In this document: one piece after another, positions 6,686 through 23,140 of the stretch
How positions within the stretch are numbered: position 1 is the stretch's first letter
How the letters are laid out: each line of letters begins with the position of its first letter
NCBI GenBank assembly: GCA_017302655.1
Contig: JAFLDE010000018.1
Location: 1-63,170, forward strand
Direction: 5' to 3'
Length of the DNA stretch: 63,170 bases
Origin: Burkholderiales bacterium
GTDB taxonomy: Bacteria > Pseudomonadota > Gammaproteobacteria > Burkholderiales > Burkholderiaceae_C
Translations under genes and position numbers: made by a program
Notes under the pieces: model-generated
The model's database searches: none
Told to the model about the DNA's origin: nothing
What the model saw: the letters and a program-made list of their open reading frames with translations, nothing else

Positions 6686-9600
6686 CTACGGATGCACAGC
6701 GGTTTGCCGCGCTGCTCTGCGAAGTTGTACTCGGTGCAAACAACCTATACCCGCTAGCCATAGCAACCAGGTCTGCGGCTCCGGCACAGCCGGCAGGCCG
6801 AGTTCAAGCACATGGAGTTGGGTGCGACCAGCTCCCGCAAACTGAACGTTGAAGAACATCTCCTGGCCAAGCGGCAGGTCAGCTGCAGAGCCCAACAAGG
6901 TCAGGCGAATCCCCTGAGCTTCAGCAGGCAGGGTCAGCACCTCCCCGCTACTGATCAACGGGCCAGCTTGCCAATAGCCACCCACCTCCAGTTCCACCTG
7001 CCAATTGAGCGAATGGGAGGCTAGGTGCGGCATCAGCAAATGGCTGATGCGTACACCCGCATCTTGGCGAATCAGGTAACCCGGCGCGACGAACGGATCC
7101 AACAAGTAGTTCTGCGCGCCCTGAACAGCAAGGTCAAAGAAGCTGCCGTCATTGTCCCGCCCCATCGGGCGCAATATGTAGGGATCGATCAGGACGCTCA
7201 GCCAAGCTCGGAGGTCCGCATCGCTCAGCGCATCCTCACTGCTGCCGCTCAAGCCACGCTGACGTGTGCTCACTACCCTTGCCGCCATGCCACTGAGCTG
7301 CTGCACCCAGTCCACCGGTGCCGATGAGGGTACCAATCCGCGATCGAAGCTCACTCCAGGTGCCATGGGCAGTGACCACCCGCGCTGCGCGAGCACAGCA
7401 AAGGGATCTTGGATGAGGCTGAGATCACGCCCGAACACTGACGCAGCCGGATCGCGATGAGGATCGCCAAGCAGGCTGAAGTTCACTATCCGATCAGCAT
7501 CGTCGAGCTGACGCAAGTCGTCACCCAACTTGAACGCGCCTTCGTAGCGTGAGCCTTGCCAATGATGCGAGGCATTCACCGACAGGGCGCCGAAGCTATA
7601 GACGTCGATGCCCAGGCGATGCCCCACCATGCTGGCCAGCGAACCTCCAAGGCCTTCCCCTGTCAGCACCAACTGTTGATCGGGGTGCGCAGCATGCAAC
7701 GCCCCCACATAGGAGACCAGGTTGCGCACATATGCGTCGTATTGCAAATTGGGGGCACTACCGTCCAGACCCCATCGACGCAGCAGGTCGGCCTCTCCCG
7801 AGAGACGGTCGGGATCCAGTCGGACGAGCACTCTCGTCGTGCCCCCTATGGCTCCGACGGCCACCTGCAATCCTTCTAGCTGAAAGCGGTCACTTCCTTC
7901 GCGCCAGAACATCGGTTCTCTCGCCTGCATGACCCAGCGGGCGAGCATCTCTCGGATGCGCCAGTCGCTGCTGAGCCGATCGGCGGCAGCGAGTCCACGC
8001 GGGGCCTCCGACGGCAAGGGGTCGAAAATCCGACCGCCAGCCCCCTTGTCCGGCATCACCGCAAAAGCCAGGGTCGAGGCGTCGCAAGCGTCTTTGACAC
8101 GTCCGTTCAGCGTGCAACCGTGGCGGAGCACCAGAGGCACCCGGGCCTGGTATGGAAGCACGTCGTTGGCGAAGCGGAACTGCGTCTGTCCCACTTGGGT
8201 GATCCAGTACCCTTCATGCAACTCGGCGCGGCCATAGATGCCTTCGCCCAAATCGATGCTGCCAGCGCTCAACAGGCGAATGGGCTCACCTACGAGGGGC
8301 AACCACTGAACGAAGGGTGCCTTGGTCACCTGCAGGATGCCGCTCAACAGCAGGCTTCCTCTCAGGGACTCCTCGGCCAAGGGCTGCGCAGGCAAGACTT
8401 GGGGCGAGCTCTGCTGCAGGATCTCCGTCCGACCGAGCACGTTGGCCTGCCCCGCGGCGATGCTCATCGAGTTGGAACCCTTGAGCCAAAGTCGAGAGGT
8501 CGGATCCAAGGACATGACGCCAGTTGAGCGCCAGCGCAACTGGTCGGCCTGCAACTCCGCGTTGTACAAGCCCATGCGGGCCATTCCCGTGGCCGTGAAG
8601 GTCTGTGCGTGCAGGGCACCCTCTATGCTCAGCGTGCCGTCGTCGAGAGACGCGCTGCCAACGATCACTCGGCTGTCACCGAGCAGTTCAAGTTCGCTGG
8701 CCAGACCCTGCACCGTCAAAGTCCCCTGGCCCGCCTGCCCAAGTTGGGTGTCGCGTAGGCTCAGCCGAGCGCCATCTTTGGCGTCCAGGTCCAACGCGGC
8801 CGTGCCACGCACAGCGTGAAGCAGTAGCTGCCCTTCCTGCGCCTGAGCAGCAAAGCTTTGGCCATCGGGCAGATCCAGGTTGCGCAAGTCCACGAGCGAG
8901 CGCGTGCCCACTGAGGACACAGAGCCGATCGGCACAGGTGTATTGGGTTCCGCATGCCAGCTGATCTTTGCGTTGTCGGCCCTCACAGATCCCTGCCCTG
9001 CCGCAACCAGCCGCAAATTGCCCAACATGAGTTGGCCATCGTGAGAAGCGTTGAACTGAAACGGCTTGCCAGAAAGTTGCCAAGTCACATCTTGCATGCT
9101 GATCAGGCTGCCGTCGCCTTGCGCAGTCATGGATAGATCGGCCGCCGATGAAGCGGGCACGAAGCGACTCCTCCACAGATACAAGCTGGCCCCTTGGGCG
9201 GCAGTCAGCCAACCACCCAAACCCATGTCGCTGTCCCGAATCCAGGCTTCGCCACCCAGCATGCTCACACTGCCCACGGCAAAGCTGCCGCCCATGCGGT
9301 CCAGTTCAAGGAGCGCGCCGCTAGCGAGTTCGACACTGCCTGCGCCACCGGCCAGCGCGTCGCGCCAGGCGACATGCTGTCGACCGGTGGTCCCCGTGCT
9401 CGAAAGCCGGGCCGCATGCAACTCGGCACCGGGCGAAACGTCGAAAGTGGCGTCGCCGCGGAGCTCAAGCGTACTCAACCGAGCAAAGCTGCCAGATTGC
9501 ATGGACAACTGGCTGCTCGCCAGATCACCGCGCATGAACAGAGAACTCGTCAGACTCGCATGCCCTCCGAAGACCCCGCCTTCAAGCAACCGCATCTCAG

Positions 9601-10681
9601 CGCCGTCGCGCAGCACGAGGCTACCGGCAAGCCGTGCCCCGCCGCCCACCTCGAGTGTCGCGCGCTGCCGCTGGCCCTGTCCGTCGACGCGACCTTCCAC
9701 GACACTGTTTGTTGTCAGATGCAGAGTCGCTTGGTCCCGAAGGATTGCCGAGCCACCCCGCACCTGCAGAAGGCTCCAATCCGGCAGGTTCGTCGCTGCC
9801 CCGGTCACTTCAAGCATGCCGCCCAGATCGGCCACCATGGCCAGGGAACGCAATTCGGGGATGGTGCGGACATCCTGCAGGAGCAGCCGACTTTCCACCC
9901 CTTGCACCTTCCATACCTGGTAAGCGGCACTTCCATATGAGCCGTCCAGGTCCAGCAGGGTTCCTCGGAGTTCAGCGTTCGCGCCCTCACTCACTGTCAG
10001 GTCCTGTGCGCGCAATACGCCACCTTGAGCCAGAAAGCTGCCATGCTCGCCGAACACCCGGGTACTACCCAGACGGCTGAAGATCGCGGGATGGGCGGGA
10101 TCGCTATCGATCAGCACTCTGCCGCCAATGTCGCTGCGCGTGAAGTTCAGCTGGGCGGTACGGCCCATCACCCGCAGGTGGACTGGCAGAGCGCCATCGT
10201 GCGCACCACCGGCAACGAACAGTTCACCCCCGTGCAACACGCCGCGCTGAAGGTTAGCCGCACTACCAAGATCTACGCGCACGAAGTTGGCGAAGAGGTC
10301 GCCGCCTTCCATGAGCATGCGCCCACCCTGGAGTTGCAACTCGTTCAAGCTGAGGTTGGAGTCCACGACCTCCAGCAGCGAAGCCCCTCCGTTGACCTGA
10401 ACAGTGATGCTTGGCGTCTGAAGGGTGGCGTTGCGCACATCCAGGTAGCCAGGGCGCTGGACCCAAACGCCGTCCTGCAGCCGAGGCACACCCACCACGA
10501 TGCCCCGGGTGCGCAACAGCGCGAGATCGTTAATGCAGGTCTCGCCCGGCACATCAATGCCGATGCATGGCGACACATAAGCATTGCTGATAACCCCCGC
10601 GTGAGACGCTGAAGCCATGCAAGCCCATGCCGCCCAAGCCACCGGTCGCCAAGCCGGCATGCCACGTTTCCAACTTGCCAT
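6686..10681 (-). CDS. Giant PEP-CTERM surface protein with solenoid region and degenerate lipase-like domain
   Basis: A 1331-residue predicted exported protein. It has a signal peptide (MASWKRGMPAW to ASASHAG) and then about 800 residues of short hydrophobic repeats (VxGxAxLxxSxLxLxxG pattern), as in beta-solenoids or adhesins. Near residues 970-1080 lies a stretch like class 3 lipases (VLTGEGLGGSLASMVGHRLG, then VYSFGAL and LLGDPH). The usual GHSLGG nucleophile motif reads GEGLGG: Ser is replaced by Gly1010 and His by Glu1009, so hydrolase activity is doubtful. The end VPEPQTWLLWLAGIGCL plus basic tail is PEP-CTERM. I prefer ATG 10681 over GTG 10687 because GAAGGGGGG sits about 9 bases upstream. 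It lies 109 bases downstream of the LytTR regulator, same strand. By eye its GC is lower than that of its neighbours. Confidence 0.82.
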   Translation of the reverse strand: MASWKRGMPAWRPVAWAAWACMASASHAGVISNAYVSPCIGIDVPGETCINDLALLRTRGIVVGVPRLQDGVWVQRPGYLDVRNATLQTPSITVQVNGGASLLEVVDSNLSLNELQLQGGRMLMEGGDLFANFVRVDLGSAANLQRGVLHGGELFVAGGAHDGALPVHLRVMGRTAQLNFTRSDIGGRVLIDSDPAHPAIFSRLGSTRVFGEHGSFLAQGGVLRAQDLTVSEGANAELRGTLLDLDGSYGSAAYQVWKVQGVESRLLLQDVRTIPELRSLAMVADLGGMLEVTGAATNLPDWSLLQVRGGSAILRDQATLHLTTNSVVEGRVDGQGQRQRATLEVGGGARLAGSLVLRDGAEMRLLEGGVFGGHASLTSSLFMRGDLASSQLSMQSGSFARLSTLELRGDATFDVSPGAELHAARLSSTGTTGRQHVAWRDALAGGAGSVELASGALLELDRMGGSFAVGSVSMLGGEAWIRDSDMGLGGWLTAAQGASLYLWRSRFVPASSAADLSMTAQGDGSLISMQDVTWQLSGKPFQFNASHDGQLMLGNLRLVAAGQGSVRADNAKISWHAEPNTPVPIGSVSSVGTRSLVDLRNLDLPDGQSFAAQAQEGQLLLHAVRGTAALDLDAKDGARLSLRDTQLGQAGQGTLTVQGLASELELLGDSRVIVGSASLDDGTLSIEGALHAQTFTATGMARMGLYNAELQADQLRWRSTGVMSLDPTSRLWLKGSNSMSIAAGQANVLGRTEILQQSSPQVLPAQPLAEESLRGSLLLSGILQVTKAPFVQWLPLVGEPIRLLSAGSIDLGEGIYGRAELHEGYWITQVGQTQFRFANDVLPYQARVPLVLRHGCTLNGRVKDACDASTLAFAVMPDKGAGGRIFDPLPSEAPRGLAAADRLSSDWRIREMLARWVMQAREPMFWREGSDRFQLEGLQVAVGAIGGTTRVLVRLDPDRLSGEADLLRRWGLDGSAPNLQYDAYVRNLVSYVGALHAAHPDQQLVLTGEGLGGSLASMVGHRLGIDVYSFGALSVNASHHWQGSRYEGAFKLGDDLRQLDDADRIVNFSLLGDPHRDPAASVFGRDLSLIQDPFAVLAQRGWSLPMAPGVSFDRGLVPSSAPVDWVQQLSGMAARVVSTRQRGLSGSSEDALSDADLRAWLSVLIDPYILRPMGRDNDGSFFDLAVQGAQNYLLDPFVAPGYLIRQDAGVRISHLLMPHLASHSLNWQVELEVGGYWQAGPLISSGEVLTLPAEAQGIRLTLLGSAADLPLGQEMFFNVQFAGAGRTQLHVLELGLPAVPEPQTWLLWLAGIGCLHRVQLRRAARQTAVHP

Positions 10682-10790
10682 GCGCACGTGCCCCCCTTCG
10701 ATGAGTCAGCCTCATCCCGGGGTGCCACCCTATCGCTCGATGGCGGCGCTGCCTTCCTCAAAACTACGAATCTGGCACAAGTGGGCCGCG

Positions 10791-11567
10791 CTACATCTGC
10801 CGGAACAGGTGCAGGTAGGACCGGGACACCGGCAGCACCTCGTCGCGGCCCTTGAGGTGGATGTCGGCGGTCTCGTTCATGCCACGCTGCACATGGCTGA
10901 TGGCGCGCAGGTTCACCACCACCGAGCGGTGCACCTGCACGAACTGTGCGGGGTCGAGCTGGGCCACCAATTCCTTGAGCGGGGTGCGGATCAAGGCTTC
11001 GCCGGGCTTGTCGCCATCGCCCTTCCAGGCCACCAGGGTGTACTTCTCGTCGCTCTTCAGGAAGTCGATCTCGTCCACGGGAATCAGGCGCAGGGTTTGG
11101 CCCACCGAGGCACGGATCCAGCGCAGCGGCGCGCTGGCCTGCGGTGCACCCAGGCGCTCGGCCAACTGGGCGATCAGCGATTCGGTGTCGTCGCGCACCG
11201 GCGCGCGCAGGCGCTCCTTCAAGCGCGCCACGGTGTCGGCCAAGCGCTCGGGCTCCACCGGCTTGACCAGGTAGTCCAGCGCCCCCTGCTCGAAGGCCTG
11301 GACGGCGTACTGGTCGTAGGCGGTCACGAAGACGATGAGCGCACGCCGGCCGATGCGCTGCGCCGCCTCGACGCCGCTCAGGCCCGGCATGTGCACGTCC
11401 AGGAAGCAGATGTCGGGCTGCTGGGCTTCGAAGTGCTCGACCGCCTCGCGCCCGTTGCGCGCCTGCGCCAGCACCTGCAGTTCGGGCCAGGCCTGAGCCA
11501 GCAAGCGCGTCAGTGCGTCGCGCAGCAGCGGTTCGTCGTCGGCAACGAGTGCGGTCGGGGCCTTCAT
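10791..11567 (-). CDS. LytTR-family response regulator
   Basis: A 258-residue cytoplasmic DNA-binding regulator. Residues 1-120 form a receiver domain with acidic pocket DDE, phospho-acceptor Asp in CFLDVHMPG, the conserved Thr in VTAYD and Lys in LVKPVEP. Residues about 150-255 form a LytTR domain (IPVDEIDFLKSDEKYTLV, FVQVHRSVVVNL, ISHV, VSRSYL). The start ATG overlaps the stop of the histidine kinase gene (ATGA), so the pair is translationally coupled. The giant PEP-CTERM gene follows 109 bases downstream, making it a possible target or operon member. No target is known from the sequence. Confidence 0.95.
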   Translation of the reverse strand: MKAPTALVADDEPLLRDALTRLLAQAWPELQVLAQARNGREAVEHFEAQQPDICFLDVHMPGLSGVEAAQRIGRRALIVFVTAYDQYAVQAFEQGALDYLVKPVEPERLADTVARLKERLRAPVRDDTESLIAQLAERLGAPQASAPLRWIRASVGQTLRLIPVDEIDFLKSDEKYTLVAWKGDGDKPGEALIRTPLKELVAQLDPAQFVQVHRSVVVNLRAISHVQRGMNETADIHLKGRDEVLPVSRSYLHLFRQM

Positions 11568-12643
11568 GCGCGGGTCTCCTCGGCGGGGAACTCGACGTCG
11601 GCCACGACCCCACCCCCTTCGCGTGCCGCGAGGCGCAATTGGGCGTCACCGGCAAACACCAACTGCAAGCGCTCGCGCAAGGTGGACAGGCCGGTGCCCA
11701 GGCCATCGCCGCCGCTGCGCAGGCCCACGCCGGTGTCGCTCACCCGGGCGTGCACCCGGGCAACCTCGCGCCGCACCTCGACCTCGATGCGGCCGCCTTC
11801 CTCGCCAGGGTCGATGCCGTGCCGCACCGCGTTTTCCACCAGCGTCAGCAGGGTCATGGTCGGGCAGCGGAGACCTTGCACCTCAGGGCCGGCCCGCACC
11901 TCGAACTGCAGGCGGTCGGGCATGCGCAGGTGCATCAAGGCCAGGTAGGCGCGCACCAGCTCCAGTTCCTGGCCGATGGTCGTCGCCGGCTGGTTCAGGC
12001 GTGGCACGGCGGCACGCAGGTAGGCAATCAAACTGCCCAGCACCTGACTGGCCTGGGGCGAGCCGGCATCCACCAACGCGCGCACATTGGCCAGGGTGTT
12101 GAAGAGGAAATGCGGTTCAACCTGGGCCTGCAGCAGGCGCAGCCGGGCGTCCAGGGCGCGGCGCTCCAGCTCGCTGCGCTCCAGCTCGAAAGCCAGGGCC
12201 TGGGCGCGGGCGGACTCCTCGCGCTGGCGCAGCATGGCCGACAGCGCCAGCAACGCGCCCAGCACCAGGCCGCTGCTTGCCATCCACAGGAAACCGGTGA
12301 TGCGCGCTTCGTTGCGCCAGAAGGCCGACAGATTGCCGCCGGTGGAGAGCAGGTAGGCGAGCAGCACGCCCAGTGGCACGGCCAGGACCACACCCAGGAC
12401 CTGCAGCACCCAGCGCGACATCCAGCGCGGCAACCGTGCCGGCCAGTGTTCGAGCAAGCCAAAAACCAGTAACGCCAGCAGACCGGCCAGCGTGGCTCGT
12501 CCGGCCAACACGGGCACCGGGGTGACGTAGATGGGACTGAGCGCGAGCGCTGTGAGCGTGGCCACCACCAGGGTCAGCAGCACGCGTCGCCACCCCAGGG
12601 TTTGGGTCAGCACGCCGGCCAGCGAGGGAGATTCAGTGGGCAT
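11564..12643 (-). CDS. LytS/AlgZ-type sensor histidine kinase
   Basis: A 359-residue membrane histidine kinase, partner of the adjacent LytTR regulator. Four hydrophobic segments lie in residues 20-145, followed by a coiled coil (LRQREESARAQALAFELERS). The His_kinase motif EPHFLFNTLANVRALVD carries the phosphorylated His, and the ATPase domain has N box (LVENAVRHGI), G1 (SDTGVGL) and G2 (GTGLSTLRERL). I chose ATG 12643 (MPTESPSLAG); an extended frame upstream is Arg-rich and looks non-coding. No extracellular sensor domain is visible, so the signal is probably sensed in or near the membrane. Confidence 0.93.
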   Translation of the reverse strand: MPTESPSLAGVLTQTLGWRRVLLTLVVATLTALALSPIYVTPVPVLAGRATLAGLLALLVFGLLEHWPARLPRWMSRWVLQVLGVVLAVPLGVLLAYLLSTGGNLSAFWRNEARITGFLWMASSGLVLGALLALSAMLRQREESARAQALAFELERSELERRALDARLRLLQAQVEPHFLFNTLANVRALVDAGSPQASQVLGSLIAYLRAAVPRLNQPATTIGQELELVRAYLALMHLRMPDRLQFEVRAGPEVQGLRCPTMTLLTLVENAVRHGIDPGEEGGRIEVEVRREVARVHARVSDTGVGLRSGGDGLGTGLSTLRERLQLVFAGDAQLRLAAREGGGVVADVEFPAEETRA

Positions 12644-12726
12644 GACCGGCACGATAGCCAGTGCCAGGCCCCTTGGGAGCCGCCGGCGCCGTTCGGCGCG
12701 ACGGGCGACGGATGGCGGGGCCTGAG

Positions 12727-12999
12727 TTACGCCGCCGCGCGGCTCCAACGGCGGCCCTGGATGCCGGTGCGGCACATCACGATGTCGCGGCCGCGCTGCA
12801 CGGCGTAGCGCAGCGCCTCCTGGGCGTTCGGCCAGGGGTAGCCGGCGCCGATGTCTTCGTCGCGGAACACCTCCTCGCGAAGCCCGTCGGCACGCAGGCG
12901 GATCACCACCACAGCGGCGCAATAGCTGGCGTTGCCCTTGCGCTCCAGCGCCCCGGCATAGATGCGGAAATCACCGGCGTCGATCTCTTCAAACTGCAT
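12727..12999 (-). CDS. Conserved hypothetical protein (90 aa)
   Basis: The start is fixed by AAGGAG seven bases upstream of ATG 12999 (MQFEEIDAGDFRIYAGALER). The product is a small soluble protein with alternating beta-like stretches (GDFRIYAGAL, YCAAVVVIRL) and an Arg-rich end (RGRDIVMCRTGIQGRRW). I do not recognise a family. It is divergent from the patatin gene across 145 bases and lies upstream of the histidine kinase gene with an 83-base gap. Confidence 0.75.
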   Translation of the reverse strand: MQFEEIDAGDFRIYAGALERKGNASYCAAVVVIRLRADGLREEVFRDEDIGAGYPWPNAQEALRYAVQRGRDIVMCRTGIQGRRWSRAAA

Positions 13000-13144: not shown

Positions 13145-14968
13145 ATGAGCGACACCCCCCTGCCCTCGCCCGAGCAACTCCGCCAGGTGCTGCGCAGCAG
13201 CCCGGTGTTCGGCGCCCTGCCCGAGCCAGCCTTGGATGCCTTGCAAGCCCAACTGCACATCCAGCGCCTGGCTGCGGGCGAGTTGGTGCTGCGCGAGGGT
13301 GAGCTGGCCGACCGTCTGGTGGTGGTGGTCAGCGGGCGGCTGCGCGTTACGCGGGTCGGCCCGCAGGGCGAATTGCAGCTCTTCAACGAACTCGGAGCGG
13401 GCGAATGCCAGGGCGAGGCTGGACTGATGCTGCGCCAGCCCCGGCCGGCCGACGTCACGGCGCTGCGCGACTCCGTGGTGGCCTGGCTCGACGAAGCCGG
13501 CTTCGAGGCCCTGCTGCACCACGACCCGGTCCTCTTCAACCGCGTGTTCTCGCAGGCCTTGGTGCGCTACCTGCGGCATACGCCCAAGCCGGTGGAGGCG
13601 GCGCGTGCGCAGACCATTGCCCTCGTGCCCCTGCTGCCCACCGAAGGCCTTCAGGAGCTGGCGCTGGCGCTGCAAGCGGCGCTGGGCCCGGCCGGCCAGG
13701 TGCGCCTGCTGCAGCCGGAAGGGCAGCAGGCCAGCGAGGTCGATCTGGTGCAGGCCATGCGGCGCTTCGACCAATGGGAGCTGTCGGCCGAAGTGCTGCT
13801 GATCCGCGCCGAGCCGCAGCTCAGCGCCTGGACGCGTTTCGCCGTCCGACAGGCCGACCAGATCGTGTTCGTGGCGCCGGCCTCGGGCAGCCCGCTGATG
13901 GGCGCCTTCGAGCGCAAGCTCCGCGAGGAGCCCGGCTTCCACTACAAGCGCCAGCAACTGGTGCTGCTGAACCCCGCCGGCATGGTCCTGCCTGGGTCGC
14001 AGCGCCCCTGGTGGCAGGAGCGCGCCGAGCTCGAACGCGTGCTTCCGCTGCGCCAGTCGCATCTGGGCGACGCCGCCCGCCTGGCGCGCTTCCTCACGGG
14101 CCACGCCGTGGGGGTGGTGCTGGGCGGCGGCGGCGCGCGCGGCTTCGCCCACCTCGGCGTGCTCAAGGCGCTGCAGGAAGCCGGCGTGCCCATCGACCTG
14201 CTGGGCGGCAACAGCATGGGCGCGCTGATCGGTTCGCAGTACGTGCTCGGCTACTCGCTGGACGCCATCCGCGAGCGCATCCAGGCCTTCGCCGCCGCCG
14301 GCGAGCGCCCCACGCTGCCCATGGTGTCGCTGCTGTCCGGGCGGCGCATGGAGCAGGGCATCCGCCGCCTGTGCCATCACGGTGGTCACGACGCCCTGAT
14401 CGACGCGCTCTGGCTGCCCTTCTTCACCGCTGCCTGCAACCTCAGCCGCGCCTGCACCACCGTGCTCGACGAAGGCCCGTTATGGCGCGCCGTGCTGGCC
14501 TCGAACAGCCCCGCCGGCCTGCTGCCGCCGGTGCCGCACCGCGGTGACCTGCTGGTGGACGGCGCCATCCTCGACAACGTGCCCGTCGAGGCCATGCGCC
14601 GGCGCCTGGGTGCCAAGCTGGAGCGGCGACGCGGCAACGGCAGCGTCATCGCCATCGACGTGGACGTGGCCGAACCGATGAACGTGGAGCCCGAGATGCA
14701 ACGCCTGGGCGCGGGGGACAAGTTGCGCGCCACCTTGCGCAAAGACGCCGCCCTGCCCTCCATCGGCCAGATCCTCTACCGCGCCGGTCACATCGGTGGC
14801 ATGGTGCAGCGCGGCCGCACGCTGGCGCAGAGCGACTTCTACCTGGAGCCGCCGGTGGCCGAGTTCTCGCTGATGGCCTACAAACGGGCCGAGGAGATTG
14901 CAGAGCGCGGGTACGAGTACGCCGTGAAGCAAATCGCCGCCTGGGACAAGAGCCAGTTGCTTCGATGA
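13145..14968 (+). CDS. Cyclic-nucleotide-binding/patatin-like phospholipase (NTE type)
   Basis: A 607-residue protein with the layout of bacterial neuropathy-target-esterase relatives. A cNMP-binding beta-roll spans residues about 18-130 (LAAGELVLREGELADRLVVV, GECQGEAGLM). A linker follows, and a patatin domain spans about 320-560. The catalytic dyad is complete: oxyanion loop GGGGARGFAHLG, nucleophile Ser in GGNSMGALIG, Asp in LVDGAILDNVP. It should hydrolyse acyl chains from (lyso)phospholipids at the inner membrane face under nucleotide control, but the substrate is unknown. ATG 13145 is supported by family start; upstream in-frame codons cross the divergent gene. Its stop overlaps the NRPS start (ATGA), implying coupled expression. 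Confidence 0.93.
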   Translation: MSDTPLPSPEQLRQVLRSSPVFGALPEPALDALQAQLHIQRLAAGELVLREGELADRLVVVVSGRLRVTRVGPQGELQLFNELGAGECQGEAGLMLRQPRPADVTALRDSVVAWLDEAGFEALLHHDPVLFNRVFSQALVRYLRHTPKPVEAARAQTIALVPLLPTEGLQELALALQAALGPAGQVRLLQPEGQQASEVDLVQAMRRFDQWELSAEVLLIRAEPQLSAWTRFAVRQADQIVFVAPASGSPLMGAFERKLREEPGFHYKRQQLVLLNPAGMVLPGSQRPWWQERAELERVLPLRQSHLGDAARLARFLTGHAVGVVLGGGGARGFAHLGVLKALQEAGVPIDLLGGNSMGALIGSQYVLGYSLDAIRERIQAFAAAGERPTLPMVSLLSGRRMEQGIRRLCHHGGHDALIDALWLPFFTAACNLSRACTTVLDEGPLWRAVLASNSPAGLLPPVPHRGDLLVDGAILDNVPVEAMRRRLGAKLERRRGNGSVIAIDVDVAEPMNVEPEMQRLGAGDKLRATLRKDAALPSIGQILYRAGHIGGMVQRGRTLAQSDFYLEPPVAEFSLMAYKRAEEIAERGYEYAVKQIAAWDKSQLLR

Positions 14969-17900
14969 GCACCCTGCTGCCGTTGGCCCTCGCGCAGCAC
15001 GAGGTGCTGCAGGACCAGCGCGCCTGGCCGGGCAGCCGGCACCTGCGGATCGGTGGGTACTCCAAGGTGCATGGCCCTCTGAAGGGCGAATGGCTGCACG
15101 AAGCGCTGCACCGCATGTGCGTCGAGCAGCCCTCGCTTCGCCTGTGTCCGGACCTGGCCGGACAACGCCTGCTGAGCCCGGACGAGGCGCGCCCCACCCT
15201 GATGGAGCAGCAATTCGGGCCTGACAGCGATCCGGACGCCCGCTATCGCGAGGTCTGGCAAGGTTGGTTGACGGAAGCGCTGGAGCCGCTGGGCACGAAC
15301 GATGCGAATGACACGAACAGCGCCAAGGGCCCGCCGCCCTGGCGCGCCGGCTGGGTGCGCTGTGGCGACACCGACTCCGCCCTGCTGCTCATGGCGCACC
15401 ACAGCGTGATGGACGGCTGGGGCAGCGCGCAGTTCCTGTCGCGCTGGGTCTGGCATTACAACCAACTCGCTGCCGGCACGTCGAGCGAGGTGGTCGAAGA
15501 CCGCAGCTATCTGCAGCACCTGCAGGAAGACGAAACCTACCGCCAGGGCGAGGGCATGCAGCGCGACGCCGCCTTCTGGGCCTCGGAGCTGCCACGCCTG
15601 CCGCCGCCGCTGTTCAGCAACCGCCGCGCCGCGCCGGCGCGCCAACTGCCGCCCGCCTTGCTGCAGCGCCTGCCGCTGTCGCGCGAGGACTACGCGCGCT
15701 GGCTGCTGCTTGCTCAGCAGGCGCATGGCACCGAATTCGCCAGCTTCGCCGCGGTGCTCGCCTGGCACTTCGGCTGCCTGGCCGGACACGAGGAGGTGCT
15801 GCTCGGCGTGCCCGTGCTGAACCGGCGCAGCCACGCGCACCGCGCCACGCTGGGCATGTATGTGGGCGTGATGCCGCTGCGCGTGCAGGTGGTCGGCGCC
15901 GCCACGCCGCGCGAACTGGCGGCGCGCGTCAGCCAGGCGCTGCGCCAGGCCATGCGCCATGCGCGCTACCCGGCCAGTTTGCTGGCGCGCCAGCTCGGCC
16001 TGGCCCGGCTGGGGCGCGACAGCGCCTTCGATCTGTTGCTTTCCTTCGAGCGCCAGGACTACCGCCACCGCATGGGCGCCGGCAGCCAATGGGCGGAGGT
16101 GGAACGCACGCACCAGTTGTTCAACGGCGCGGCGCGCTTTCCACTGTCCATCACCGTTTGCGACTTTGGAGCTGACCATGAGCTGGAGCTGGTCTTCGAA
16201 GCCAGCAGCTCCTGCTTCGACGGCCGCGGTCTGGCCCTGCTGGCGCGCCGCGTGGTGGCGCTGGCCAAGACCTTCGCCGAGCAGCCCGATGCGCCGCTGG
16301 AGGCACTGCCGCTGCTGCCGCCGGCCGAGCGCGAGGCCGTGCTGGAAGGCCTTCACCGCGACCTCGCCCACCTGGAGCGCGCGCCAAGCTTCGTCGAACG
16401 ATTTGCCGCGCAGGCTGCCCTGCACCCGCTCAGTACCGCGCTGGTCTGGGATGGCGGCAGCCTTCGCTATGGCGAGCTGGCTGCGCGCGTGCGCCGCCTG
16501 GCCGCCCGCCTGCTCGCCGCCGGCGTGCGGCCCGCTGAACCGGTGCCGCTGCTGCTGCCGCGCGGCCCCGATCTGGTCTGCGCCCAGCTGGCGGTGGCAC
16601 GCGCTGGCGCTAGCTTCGTGCCCCTCGACCCCGAGGCGCCCGACGAGCGCCTGTGCACCTTGCTGAGCCTCCTGACCGCCTGTGGCGCACGGCGGCTGCT
16701 TGGAGAAGCTGCGCAGTCCGAGCGACTCACCCGCCTTCACCCCGATTGGATGGCGGCCGACGCCGAGGCCGACGCCGTTGCGGTCAGCGATGCCGAGTTG
16801 CCGCCCTGGCCCGACGAGACAGCACCGGCCTACGCGCTGTTCACCAGCGGCTCCACCGGCACGCCGAAGGCGGTGCGCGTGCCGCATGGCGCGCTGGCGC
16901 GGCGCTTTGCCTGGCTGGCACGGGTCTGGGACCTCGGCCCGGCCGACCGCAGTCTGCAAGGCACGCAGGCCGGCTTCGACCCCAGCCTGATCGAGCTCTT
17001 GCTGCCGCTCACGCTGGGCGCCAGCGTGGCCCTGCCCCCGCCCGGGCGTCTGGCACCGCAGCGCTGGGCAGCCTTTGCGACGCGCCACGGCTGCAGCTTC
17101 AGCGCCTTGGTGCCCACCACGCTGGCACGCCTGCTCGACGGCATTGAAGCCCTGGAGCCGGCCGAGCGTGAGCGCCTGCGCCTGCGCGTGGCCTGCTGCG
17201 GCGGCGAGGTGCTGCCGCCACCGCTCGCTCAGCGCTGGCTGCGCAGCACGCGCGCCGCGCTTTGGAACGTCTACGGCCCCACCGAGGCTTGCATCTTTGC
17301 CACCGCCTGGAATTGCCGCGACGGCGACGAGGCGCTGGCGTTGCCCGTGGGCAGCCCGGTGGACGACACCCGGCTCTACGTGCTGGACGCCCAAGGCCAA
17401 CCCCTGCCCTTCGGCACGCCCGGGGAGATCTGGCTGGGCGGCCCGACGCTGGCGCTGGACTACCTGGGCGACCCGGAGGCCACGCAGGAGCGCTTCCGGC
17501 CCGACCCCTTCCTGCCGGGCGACCCGCAGGCTCGCATCTACCGCACAGGCGACCGCGGCTGGCTGGACGGCGACGGCCGCCTTCAGTTCCTGGGCCGCGC
17601 CGACCGCCAGCTGAAGATTCGCGGCCAGCGCATCGAGCCCGGCGAGGTAGAGGCGGCGCTGCTGGGCCTGCCCCTGCATCCCCCCGTGCATGAGGTGCAT
17701 GTGCAAGGCCACGCGCCACAGCCGGGCGAGCCAGCGCAGCTGCATGCCTACCTGGCACCTGCCAGCGTCGACCTGGACGCATTGCGCCAGGCCGCCCGCC
17801 AGCGGCTGCCCGAGGCCTTGCTGCCGACGGGCTGGACGCTGCTGGACGCCCTGCCCCGCACGGCCACTGGCAAGCTCGACCAGCAGCGCCTGCCAGCCCC

Positions 17901-18906
17901 GGGCCTTGCGCCCAGCATGCCGCACCGCCCACCCGGCACGCCGCTCGAAGCCGAGCTGCTTCAGCTGATGGGCAGCGTGCTCCAGCGCGAAGACCTGGGC
18001 GTGGACGACGACTTCTTCCAGTCCGGTGGCGACAGCCTGGCAGCGCTGGACTGGCTGGCCGCCATCGAGCAGCGCACCGGCCTGCACGCCGACCTCGCCC
18101 TGCTGGCGCAATCGCCCACCGTGGCCAGGTTGGCGCAGCAGCTCAGCTTGGCCGAAACGGCCGCGAAGGGTGGATGGCTCGAGGCGCCCATGGCGCTGGC
18201 GCTGAGCCAGCACGAAGCCGCGCCCACCTTGTTTCTAGCCGCCAGCGGCCATGGGGATCGGTTGCGCTTTCAGCAACTGGCGCAGGCGCTGGCGCCCCAG
18301 GTCAACGTGCAGATGCTGCAGCCGCCGCCGGGCGTGCCGATGGGAACGCTCAGCGAACTGGCCGCCGCCTACGGCCAGCACATCCAGGCCCATCACGACA
18401 AACATCAGGCCGCGCAGGGCGCGGCGCCGGTTTGGCTGGCCGGCTTTTCGGTGGGTGGCGTGGCCGCGCTGGAAACAGCGCGCTGGCTGCAGGCGAACGG
18501 CACGTCGGTGCAGCGTCTGGTGCTCATCGACTCGGTGTTCCCCCGCTGGCTGCTGCGCCAGCCTTGGCTCTGGCGCTTCCTGGGCTGGCTCACGCGCAGC
18601 CTCTACGTTCAGGAGCTGAGCATGAACGGCCGGCGCTTGGGCGCCATGTTCAAGGACACCGGCCTGGTCGGCCAGGTGCTGGCGCTGCATCGCTACCGCG
18701 TGCGGCCGTATGCCGGCGCGGTCTGGCTGCTGCGCACCAGCGGGCTGGCGCGTTGGCAGGGCCTGCTCTTCGGCCCCTGGCGTGCGCCATTGCAGCTTCA
18801 TGAGGAAGAGGTACAAGGCCTGCACGGCTCGGTGTTCGAGCCCGGCCGCGTGGCCGGGCTCGCACAATGCCTGCGCCGTGTCCTGGCCCTTCCTCCTGCG
18901 CCTTGA
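14965..18906 (+). CDS. Single-module non-ribosomal peptide synthetase (C-A-T-TE)
   Basis: A 1313-residue one-module NRPS. The condensation domain (about 1-450) has an intact AHHSVMDGW motif (H145, H146, D150). The adenylation domain (about 470-960) has LFTSGSTGTPKA, NVYGPTE, YRTGDRGW, LGRADRQLKIRG and PRTATGKLD. The thiolation domain carries the pantetheine Ser in GGDSLAAL (about residue 1023). The thioesterase has GFSVGG (Ser about 1162), an Asp in VLIDSVF and a likely catalytic His in GLHGSV. Aligning by eye to the GrsA pocket suggests DPILACVIFK, which I cannot assign to a substrate. With an N-terminal C domain it should join an outside acyl or peptidyl donor to one amino acid and release it through the TE. 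It is coupled to the patatin gene upstream (ATGA). No phosphopantetheinyl transferase is in the window. Confidence 0.95.
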   Translation: MSTLLPLALAQHEVLQDQRAWPGSRHLRIGGYSKVHGPLKGEWLHEALHRMCVEQPSLRLCPDLAGQRLLSPDEARPTLMEQQFGPDSDPDARYREVWQGWLTEALEPLGTNDANDTNSAKGPPPWRAGWVRCGDTDSALLLMAHHSVMDGWGSAQFLSRWVWHYNQLAAGTSSEVVEDRSYLQHLQEDETYRQGEGMQRDAAFWASELPRLPPPLFSNRRAAPARQLPPALLQRLPLSREDYARWLLLAQQAHGTEFASFAAVLAWHFGCLAGHEEVLLGVPVLNRRSHAHRATLGMYVGVMPLRVQVVGAATPRELAARVSQALRQAMRHARYPASLLARQLGLARLGRDSAFDLLLSFERQDYRHRMGAGSQWAEVERTHQLFNGAARFPLSITVCDFGADHELELVFEASSSCFDGRGLALLARRVVALAKTFAEQPDAPLEALPLLPPAEREAVLEGLHRDLAHLERAPSFVERFAAQAALHPLSTALVWDGGSLRYGELAARVRRLAARLLAAGVRPAEPVPLLLPRGPDLVCAQLAVARAGASFVPLDPEAPDERLCTLLSLLTACGARRLLGEAAQSERLTRLHPDWMAADAEADAVAVSDAELPPWPDETAPAYALFTSGSTGTPKAVRVPHGALARRFAWLARVWDLGPADRSLQGTQAGFDPSLIELLLPLTLGASVALPPPGRLAPQRWAAFATRHGCSFSALVPTTLARLLDGIEALEPAERERLRLRVACCGGEVLPPPLAQRWLRSTRAALWNVYGPTEACIFATAWNCRDGDEALALPVGSPVDDTRLYVLDAQGQPLPFGTPGEIWLGGPTLALDYLGDPEATQERFRPDPFLPGDPQARIYRTGDRGWLDGDGRLQFLGRADRQLKIRGQRIEPGEVEAALLGLPLHPPVHEVHVQGHAPQPGEPAQLHAYLAPASVDLDALRQAARQRLPEALLPTGWTLLDALPRTATGKLDQQRLPAPGLAPSMPHRPPGTPLEAELLQLMGSVLQREDLGVDDDFFQSGGDSLAALDWLAAIEQRTGLHADLALLAQSPTVARLAQQLSLAETAAKGGWLEAPMALALSQHEAAPTLFLAASGHGDRLRFQQLAQALAPQVNVQMLQPPPGVPMGTLSELAAAYGQHIQAHHDKHQAAQGAAPVWLAGFSVGGVAALETARWLQANGTSVQRLVLIDSVFPRWLLRQPWLWRFLGWLTRSLYVQELSMNGRRLGAMFKDTGLVGQVLALHRYRVRPYAGAVWLLRTSGLARWQGLLFGPWRAPLQLHEEEVQGLHGSVFEPGRVAGLAQCLRRVLALPPAP

Positions 18907-19583
18907 GCTCCGATCCCGACGCCCACCGCCGCCCCCGCCACCGCCACCGACTGGCCGGCCTGTTGGCCGCGCTGCTGCTGCTGCTCTCGCTGGCGCTGGC
19001 CTGGCGCTTCAGCCCGGCGGCCGCCTGGCTGCACCCCGACACCCTGCTGGAAGGCGCCCGCCACATCGGCTGGGCCACGCAATTGGCAGTCTTCGTGCTG
19101 GCCGGCTGCGCGGCGGTGCCGCTCTCGCTCCTGGTGCTGCTGACGGTGCTGGTGCAAGGCCCCTGGCAGGGCGCGCTGAGCTGCCTGCTGGGCGGCAGCT
19201 TGATCGGGGCGCTGAGCTTTGGCGCCGGGGCCCTGCTCGGCCGCCAGGCGGTGGCGCAATGGGCCGGGCCACGCCTGCAGGCGCTCAATGCGCTGGTGGC
19301 ACGGCGCGGCCTGCTCGCGGTCTTCGTGGTGCGCCTGGTGCCGGCGGCGCCCTTTGCGGTGGTCAACCTGATGCTGGGCGCGACGCCGATCCGCTGGTTC
19401 GCCTTCCTTGCCGGCAACCTGATCGGCATGCTGCCCATGGTGGGCGTGACCGCCTGGGCAGCGCCGGAGATCCTCGCCCAGCTGCGTGAACCCAGCGAAT
19501 GGGGTGTGGCAGCGCTGCTCGGCGTGCTGCTGCTGGTGGCCGCAGCCACCTGGGCACTCAAGCGCTGGGCGCGCACGCTGTGA
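18903..19583 (+). CDS. TVP38/TMEM64 (DedA-like) membrane protein
   Basis: An inner-membrane protein of about 226 residues with a VTT/SNARE-associated domain: hydrophobic helices near residues 20-40, 70-100, 110-135 and 200-222, with the central FVVRLVPAAPFAVVNLMLGAT and GNLIGMLPM segments typical of the TVP38 branch. Relatives of the DedA superfamily are linked to lipid scrambling and membrane homeostasis; the substrate here is unknown. The start is ambiguous. TTG 18903 overlaps the NRPS stop (TTGA), which fits the coupling seen upstream; ATG 18867 would give 12 more residues inside the NRPS C-terminus. Context suggests a role in handling the patatin/NRPS product. Confidence 0.88.
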   Translation: MSSDPDAHRRPRHRHRLAGLLAALLLLLSLALAWRFSPAAAWLHPDTLLEGARHIGWATQLAVFVLAGCAAVPLSLLVLLTVLVQGPWQGALSCLLGGSLIGALSFGAGALLGRQAVAQWAGPRLQALNALVARRGLLAVFVVRLVPAAPFAVVNLMLGATPIRWFAFLAGNLIGMLPMVGVTAWAAPEILAQLREPSEWGVAALLGVLLLVAAATWALKRWARTL

Positions 19584-22231: not shown

Positions 22232-23140
22232 TCAGTTCTGGCTGGCGCGCCGCGGCAAGAGCAGCCCCAGCCCAAGCAACATCAGCGCCGCAACGCCCGG
22301 CTCGGGCACCGGCGCGAAGGGCTGCGTCCAGTCGATGCCGCTCTGGCTGCTCAAGGTGAAGGCCACCGGGCTGCCGGCCAGGGTCAGCGATTGGACGCCG
22401 CCCCAGGTCATGGTGCTGGCGAAGTCGCTGGTGGCCTCGCTCATCCAATTGGGCCCGGCGCCTGCCGTACCTGCCGAGGCACGGGTGAAGACTCCGAGCT
22501 CGAAGGGCGTGCCGAGTTTCACGGTGACCGAGAAGTTCAGGTCCTGGTCAATGTCCTGGTGGAAAGGAAAGCCGCCCTGGCCCTGTCCTTGCACGCGAAA
22601 ACTCTGGCCGGGCACGCTCCCATCGTCCTTCCAGACCTGAACGCCGATGCGGGTGTAGCTGTTGCCACTGGGCACTCCATCGAGCATGCCGTCCAGATGC
22701 AGGCTGAAGCTGAGCACCACGTCCTGGCCGATCAGCGCAGGGTTGACGGGGTTCAAGGTCCAGGTGTCGGTCCAACCGGCCGTGGTTTCGGCCGCAGCGA
22801 AACCGGCACTGGCGTTGGCCCGAAAGTGCGCATAGACACCCACCTGGCCGAACTGCGCGCTGCCATGCGCATCGGTCTGCACGACCGGCGCCGCCTGGTT
22901 CCATCCGCCGGCGGCGACCAGCAACTGGCCAGGCGATGCGGTGGTGAACGCGTCGCAGCTGAACTTGCCCGCCATGTAGTCAAACAGCCCGCCCTCCACC
23001 GGGAAGCCACCGGTGGCCAAGCCGCCGCAGCTGGACAACAAAGCGCCGCTGCTGCCCAGGTCGGCCTGACTTTTCTGGGCGCCGAAGGCCGGCGTGGCCA
23101 GCAGCGCGAAGGAGATGCAGAGGAAGGCGTGACGGGTCAT
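22232..23140 (-). CDS. PEP-CTERM sorting domain protein
   Basis: A 302-residue exported protein with a signal peptide (MTRHAFLCISFALLATPAFG). The mature part is rich in Gly, Ser, Thr and aromatic residues and resembles extracellular beta-sandwich proteins (WTLNPVNPALIGQDVVLSFSL region), with a few cysteines (LLSSCGGL, FSCDAF). The end VPEPGVAALMLLGLGLLL plus PRRASQN is a clear PEP-CTERM signal. The function of the mature domain is not recognised. Confidence 0.88.
   Translation of the reverse strand: MTRHAFLCISFALLATPAFGAQKSQADLGSSGALLSSCGGLATGGFPVEGGLFDYMAGKFSCDAFTTASPGQLLVAAGGWNQAAPVVQTDAHGSAQFGQVGVYAHFRANASAGFAAAETTAGWTDTWTLNPVNPALIGQDVVLSFSLHLDGMLDGVPSGNSYTRIGVQVWKDDGSVPGQSFRVQGQGQGGFPFHQDIDQDLNFSVTVKLGTPFELGVFTRASAGTAGAGPNWMSEATSDFASTMTWGGVQSLTLAGSPVAFTLSSQSGIDWTQPFAPVPEPGVAALMLLGLGLLLPRRASQN

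Follow-up and report, generated by a model that had tools for sequence, protein, structure and literature searches.

The closest described counterpart of the locus studied here is a cassette reported in 2023 (PMC10681181), in which two bins from sludge and three strains each combine genes for an NRPS, a SNARE-associated protein and a patatin (the Rhodoferax and Rhodocyclaceae bins, P. ginsengisoli, N. denitrificans and R. koreense), with NRPS identities of 51-58%. According to the available text of that report, cassette-bearing strains inhibited Botrytis by 43-47%, versus 11.6% for a strain without the condensation (C) domain (the text and Table 2 swap two strain values). The link is correlative, between three strains and one, the authors themselves are cautious about it, and no product is given in that text.

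Other described systems resemble single members of this cassette. First, a stand-alone NRPS composed of C, adenylation (A), thiolation (T) and thioesterase (TE) domains defines the pyreudione cluster, as far as the accessible part of PMC8719888 goes. The pyreudione synthetase and AB3403 (PDB 4ZXH) consist of one C-A-T-TE module, like the NRPS encoded in our window (the whole stretch of DNA that was analysed, 63,170 nucleotides), and differ from it in their specificity code. We know of no patatin and VTT genes coupled to stand-alone C-A-T-TE NRPSs. Second, RzmA-Cs, HolA-Cs and CdaPS1-C1 resemble the window C domain in their full-length alignment, their HHxxxDG motif and the small residue at the R148 position; they start multi-module lipopeptide synthetases, whereas the window module also ends in a TE. 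Third, OaaC, as presented in the available part of PMC13142362, combines an acyl donor with one small amine compound, as we propose for the window NRPS, but it is free-standing with a (D/H)HxxxDS motif, whereas the window C domain has HHxxxDG and built-in A and T domains. An assignment to the OaaC-type fatty acid amide C domains was rejected, DG being present in all 59 NRPSs counted below and the domain being fused to A and T. Fourth, the NTE/PlpD/RssA-type patatins have a cNMP domain, an NTE P-loop-like domain and a Ser-Asp dyad in common with the window patatin, whose subfamily stands apart by about 50% identity or more inside and at most 39% identity to other full-length homologues in 100 relatives. 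Fifth, the COG0398/TVP38 branch of DedA proteins shares with the window VTT protein a VTT_dom and, as judged by eye, probably a first re-entrant tip (P-L-S-L-L) devoid of acidic residues; unlike this branch in general, the window protein is bound to one operon.

The window trio comprises the same three gene types as the published cassette, two species of which (P. ginsengisoli, our locus L087, and N. denitrificans, L083) are, by species name, common to both studies. The combination, which an earlier note on this DNA had not recognised, is already in print, without explanation, and we found no other description in the part of the open-access literature that was searched. New here are its breadth, its constant chemistry, and one natural loss of the NRPS followed by faster patatin evolution; the available text of PMC10681181 does not extend to conservation beyond its five organisms, to the forms in gammaproteobacteria, to the specificity code, to evidence for a starter domain or to a loss of the NRPS. 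We propose that the trio is a cyclic-nucleotide-gated lipo-amino-acid operon, a reading to which we give an even chance of being right.

Gene order and conservation of the trio

The three genes lie on one strand and overlap by ATGA, then TTGA (Table 1), just as the earlier note had described. An in-frame ATG at 18867, an alternative start for the VTT gene, would give a 238-aa protein. A promoter scan of the window operon found none, and terminator-like sites in the window were at the level of shuffled sequence.

Table 1. Features of the trio in the window, with strand and basis of each assignment.
Feature	Position	Strand	Details and basis
cNMP-binding, NTE-type patatin phospholipase	13145..14968	+	607 aa, ATG start; Pfam
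Cyclic-nucleotide-binding domain; phosphate-binding-cassette Glu91, Arg100	13262..13522	+	Pfam, alignment
NTE-type P-loop-like domain	13610..14023	+	PF24179, 48 bits
Patatin catalytic domain (GGGGARG, GGNSMG, DGA)	14114..14593	+	Pfam, motif counts
ATGA start-stop overlap, patatin/NRPS	14965..14968	+	sequence; overlaps also in relatives
Single-module NRPS, C-A-T-TE	14965..18906	+	1313 aa, ATG within ATGA; Pfam, orthologues
Condensation domain, starter-like, HHxxxDG intact	14980..16338	+	Pfam, structure-set ranking, residue counts
Adenylation domain, code DPIAACVIFK	16402..17874	+	Pfam, alignment; positions mapped by presumed motifs
Thiolation (carrier) domain, GGDSL, Ser1024	17953..18141	+	Pfam; Ser in 59/59
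Compact thioesterase, SGHGD loop, NGRR..GAMF lid stretch; Ser1162, Asp1189, His1287	18226..18903	+	Pfam, alignment, model
TTGA start-stop overlap, NRPS/VTT	18903..18906	+	sequence; overlaps also in relatives
VTT/TVP38 (DedA superfamily) membrane protein	18903..19583	+	226 aa, TTG within TTGA; PF09335, 53.7 bits

The conservation of this arrangement rests on the following lines of evidence. First, a full-length NRPS orthologue is present in seven others among 100 relatives (the window's own genome included), each time with the patatin gene directly before it and the VTT gene directly after it. Second, the family TE alignment, run against 84,980 species genomes, returned 63 loci, labelled from record titles as 55 betaproteobacterial and 8 gammaproteobacterial (L113 being called only "proteobacterium"). 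These loci are non-independent, since several belong to one genus, and L099/L102 as well as L103/L104 each come from one MAG. Wherever a betaproteobacterial locus has room on both sides, the full trio is present in the same order and strand (46/46); patatin is directly upstream of the NRPS in 48/48, and VTT directly downstream in 53/53, of the betaproteobacterial loci with the necessary room. When the start codon nearest the upstream stop is taken, a choice that favours overlaps, an overlap is possible at 43 of 51 patatin-NRPS junctions (22 of them by 4 bases) and at 39 of 53 NRPS-VTT junctions (26 of them by 4 bases). Third, 32 of 399 genomes of the family (own genome included) contain the patatin subfamily, and the NRPS is present in 30 of these and in no other genome (Fisher p 4e-43, kinship ignored, in a count that covered the patatin subfamily and the NRPS). 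In all NRPS genomes but one, the two genes adjoin and share contig and strand (29 of 30); the exception is G594, where they lie on different contigs and the patatin gene is located at a contig end. The two genomes with patatin and no detected NRPS are G526, where the patatin ends at the contig start, and G001, which is described below.

The genes around the trio vary between the genera compared, and are common within genera and within the Roseateles/Paucibacter group. Because the same order recurs in 46/46 loci while the flanks differ between genera, the arrangement reflects more than chance. On sequence evidence, the trio is a real, conserved and catalytically intact unit: the genes are there, linked, conserved and with their active residues in place. 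The earlier note had named a lack of conserved gene order in relatives as grounds for refuting its proposal, and on this point these loci do not refute it. A search for an extra gene common to the trio loci returned recurrent families that represent synteny within related genera or generic genes; the next gene of the window, a histidine phosphatase gene from 19606, has matching neighbours in same-genus loci only.

With a class-wide TE profile, 3 of 369 genomes matched, including the window's own. The other two were rejected as trios: G339 has no patatin or VTT gene within 18 kb, and G400 lacks a patatin gene and has a shorter NRPS, some 4 kb from a VTT gene. Plasmids, searched with the patatin only, gave no match at E <= 1e-60.

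No VTT gene was found in any of the 8 gammaproteobacterial loci. Patatin adjoins the NRPS in six of them, directly upstream in L104, L110 and L111 (5/8 lack this order) and rearranged in L112, L114 (convergent) and L115 (downstream); no patatin was called beside the NRPS in L103 and L113. The gene overlapping or abutting the NRPS encodes a pyridoxal-dependent decarboxylase in L103, an alpha/beta hydrolase in L113 and a radical SAM protein in L115. In the L103 region (L103:2836-13339), the decarboxylase, whose gene overlaps the NRPS gene, is of the tyrosine type, and a lipoxygenase gene lies further downstream on the other strand.

The locus of Noviherbaspirillum denitrificans (L083:7698-9325) holds only the T-TE part and the VTT gene, with no patatin within 16.6 kb; the NRPS domains of this species were reported as separate genes (PMC10681181, in the part available). 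This locus, and the retention of patatin and VTT without the NRPS in G001, would fit three neighbours lacking any common function. Such a reading is very unlikely given the 46/46 trios, the 30/30 co-occurrence and the patatin that still adjoins the NRPS in the rearranged gammaproteobacterial loci.

Upstream of the trio, on the opposite strand, the window encodes a histidine kinase and LytTR response regulator pair (10791-12922). A 1333-aa protein (6686-10687, minus strand) ends in VPEPQTW, which we take to be a PEP-CTERM-like motif, and another PEP-CTERM-like tail is found at 22232-23140 (minus strand).

The NRPS module and its predicted product

Pfam places Condensation at 6-458, AMP-binding at 480-834, PP-binding at 997-1059 and Thioesterase at 1088-1193 of the NRPS, all over cut-offs, with AMP-binding_C just below. 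Residues were counted in 59 sequences (the window, G003 and 57 of the 63 loci; 6 partial NRPSs were excluded). The H, H, D and G of the C domain are invariant, like the carrier Ser, and the TE triad is kept almost throughout (Ser 59/59; Asp 57/59, with Glu in 2; His 58/59, with one gap). The protein is a complete single C-A-T-TE module with its catalytic residues.

The C domain, with its HHxxxDG motif, is nearest to a starter domain among solved structures. In phmmer, RzmA-Cs came first over 1-451 (89.2 bits; EntF, 66.9), and the family profile scored RzmA-Cs at 191.5 bits versus 155.9 for PvdL, 150.1 for Txo2, 137.3 for CDA, 129.8 for TycC, 108.9 for EntF, 81 for AB3403 and 74.9 for SrfA-C. 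We take PvdL to be a myristoylating starter-type domain and Txo2 an elongation domain, and the scores of these two are nearly equal. When scored, the C domains of 22 other loci gave a mixed result that does not decide the class.

In RzmA (structure 7C1H) and HolA, the residue at the R148 position sets the chain length, and small residues there admit C8-C10 chains in RzmA (PMC7804268, in the part available). The equivalent residue in the 59 NRPSs is Thr (53), Ser (4) or Ala (2); position 144 is Phe or Tyr in 53/59 (Ala in the window's own protein) and position 149 is Met in 53/59. By the RzmA pocket rule, the acyl donor looks medium rather than long. Comparison supports a fatty-acyl donor, which may be an acyl-CoA or acyl-ACP, and a single-residue product. 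The earlier note had the patatin free or present the acyl chain for the NRPS, and this may be so; however, membrane lipids are mostly C16-C18, and because the residues at 144 and 149 argue against long chains, chains derived from the membrane are perhaps not what the NRPS uses. We recognised no gene for an acyl ligase or a carrier among the three.

Of the 59 NRPSs, 40 have the specificity code DPIAACVIFK and the rest differ from it by one or few changes, the D, P and final K being constant throughout; the code positions were mapped by motifs that we presume to apply. Such a near-constant code suggests that one kind of amino acid is activated across the family. The code strings appear in none of the papers searched.

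The modelled TE (mean pLDDT 93.3) is nearest in fold to NocB and AB3403, and its SGHGD loop and NGRR..GAMF stretch are family-specific and conserved in an alignment of 51 of the 58 available sequences. Of eight genomes checked, five (G000, G002, G003, G004 and G043) have no condensation domain over cut-off besides that of this NRPS, and G080 has several. No MbtH was found in the window's own genome. A second phosphopantetheinyl transferase was considered as an operon companion and rejected: two matches occur in 5/10 genomes, one in 4/10 and none in G005, and the operon is present alongside a single match in G002, G003 and G080.

Taken together, these sequences are best read as encoding a one-module lipo-NRPS that would produce a lipo-amino acid. 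The earlier idea that the NRPS joins an acyl chain to an amino acid gains support from the proximity to RzmA-Cs, the single module and the five genomes without another condensation domain, and it stays a prediction.

By analogy with the pyreudiones, the NRPS could instead make a secreted small antifungal or signal (an N-acyl amino acid, or a TE-cyclised tetramate or pyrrolizidine), the patatin and VTT protein then serving membrane repair or self-protection. The Botrytis inhibition, the stand-alone module that defines the pyreudione cluster and the predicted TE fold would agree with this, but the inhibition is correlative, no clear exporter or tailoring gene is common to the genera, and the code does not resemble the proline code as we understand it. 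We regard this alternative as possible, though on the unlikely side. For the antifungal activity described in the available part of PMC10681181, the cassette supplies a defined gene to target.

The cyclic-nucleotide-type phospholipase and the VTT protein

The patatin contains cNMP_binding (40-126), NTE_Ploop (156-293) and Patatin (324-483) domains, all over Pfam cut-offs. In 55 sequences (2 partial patatins excluded), the catalytic dyad, Ser357 and Asp472, is kept in 55/55, so that the protein has the full make-up of an NTE-type patatin. In the cassette expected to bind the cyclic nucleotide, Glu91 is kept in 53/55 (Val in G001 and L055/G002) and Arg100 in 54/55. Five class III cyclase matches pass the cut-off in the window's own genome, hence a cNMP signal can exist there. 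Regulation by a cyclic nucleotide, as the earlier note had it, fits the conserved binding residues, and gating itself is plausible. In the same genome (L122:1578-5688, G000 contig C10), a second cNMP-patatin gene, whose product is 34% identical, is divergent to a gene for a 697-aa class III cyclase match.

A cNMP-sensing, membrane-damaging patatin also recalls the CBASS/Pycsar effectors, and the trio could be a phage or stress defence with the NRPS as an accessory. We consider this extremely improbable: the PADLOC matches to cNMP-domain and phospholipase effectors are weak (at most 28.3 bits) and domain-level, the NRPS and VTT protein have no PADLOC match, the operon has no cyclase, and the trio sits in a conserved chromosomal context within genera. 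Membership among these effectors was rejected on the missing cyclase and the PADLOC scores. PHROGs matched the VTT protein once, weakly, and the patatin not at all.

The VTT protein has a VTT_dom at 72-184, over the Pfam cut-off, and its model (mean pLDDT 88.6) had no fold match in the PDB at E <= 0.001. The VTT alignment covered 47 of 48 sequences. Judged by eye against the available part of PMC10127716, the first re-entrant tip, P-L-S-L-L, appears to lack the acidic residues of UndP flippases, which would place the protein in the COG0398 scramblase-like branch.

Natural loss of the NRPS and a proposed pathway

G001, a genome of the window's genus, carries at the same locus (L053, 7513-10067, minus strand) patatin and VTT genes fused by ATGA, without NRPS. 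Compared with its sister G002, unique changes (G001:G002) with three outgroups were 76:26, 86:23 and 76:23 in the patatin (p <= 7e-7) and 34:15 to 36:14 in the VTT protein (p 0.002-0.007). Among the flanks, the phosphatase, 774-aa, 194-aa and up312 proteins showed no significant rate difference, up344 gave 10:3 (p 0.052), and the M13 peptidase was also faster in G001 (51:32, p 0.037; 22:4 with another outgroup). Against the pooled flanks (124:92), the patatin excess stands (Fisher p 0.0001-0.004 by outgroup) and the VTT acceleration is not significant (p 0.08-0.15); the patatin against the M13 peptidase alone gives p 0.08. From the excess over the pooled flanks, we infer that the G001 patatin probably lost its constraint along with the NRPS, in what is one event.

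The faster evolution of the patatin after NRPS loss is consistent with another possibility, in which a lysophospholipid made by the patatin receives the N-acyl-aminoacyl group from the TE, to give a new membrane lipid that is then flipped by the VTT protein. This would explain the coupling of a phospholipase and a scramblase-like protein to one NRPS module, and would give a role to the unusual conserved TE loop and lid stretch; if true, a cyclic nucleotide would reshape the membrane through non-ribosomal chemistry. However, the VTT gene is missing from the gammaproteobacterial loci, ordinary TE hydrolysis would suffice, and we know of no precedent for such a transfer, which makes this possibility clearly unlikely.

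For the cyclic-nucleotide-gated lipo-amino-acid operon, which we favour, we propose the following pathway. The NRPS would activate one hydrophobic amino acid and load it on its carrier domain; the starter-like C domain would N-acylate it with a fatty-acyl-CoA or acyl-ACP from general metabolism, probably of medium chain; and the TE would release the N-acyl amino acid. The patatin, switched by cAMP or cGMP, would deacylate nearby membrane phospholipid, so that the product finds space, free fatty acid or lysolipid, and the VTT protein would equilibrate the amphiphile or lysolipid across the two leaflets of the inner membrane. Movement of the product by the VTT protein, as the earlier note had suggested, is conceivable for the betaproteobacterial loci, the gene being absent in 8/8 gammaproteobacterial ones; the retention of patatin and VTT by G001 also counts against our proposal. 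Across tens of genera from freshwater and soil, a single NRPS module, which several of these bacteria have as the sole one of their genome, is tied to a cyclic-nucleotide-type phospholipase; in betaproteobacteria it is also tied to a scramblase-like protein. If our proposal is true, second-messenger signalling would be linked to a defined lipo-amino acid, and there would be a handle on the substrate of a bacterial VTT protein of COG0398, a group whose function is open according to the available part of PMC10127716. The nearest relatives of the VTT protein outside the operon (G069:C50:130939-131598 and similar) lie in open frames of at least 700 aa and are probably fusions.
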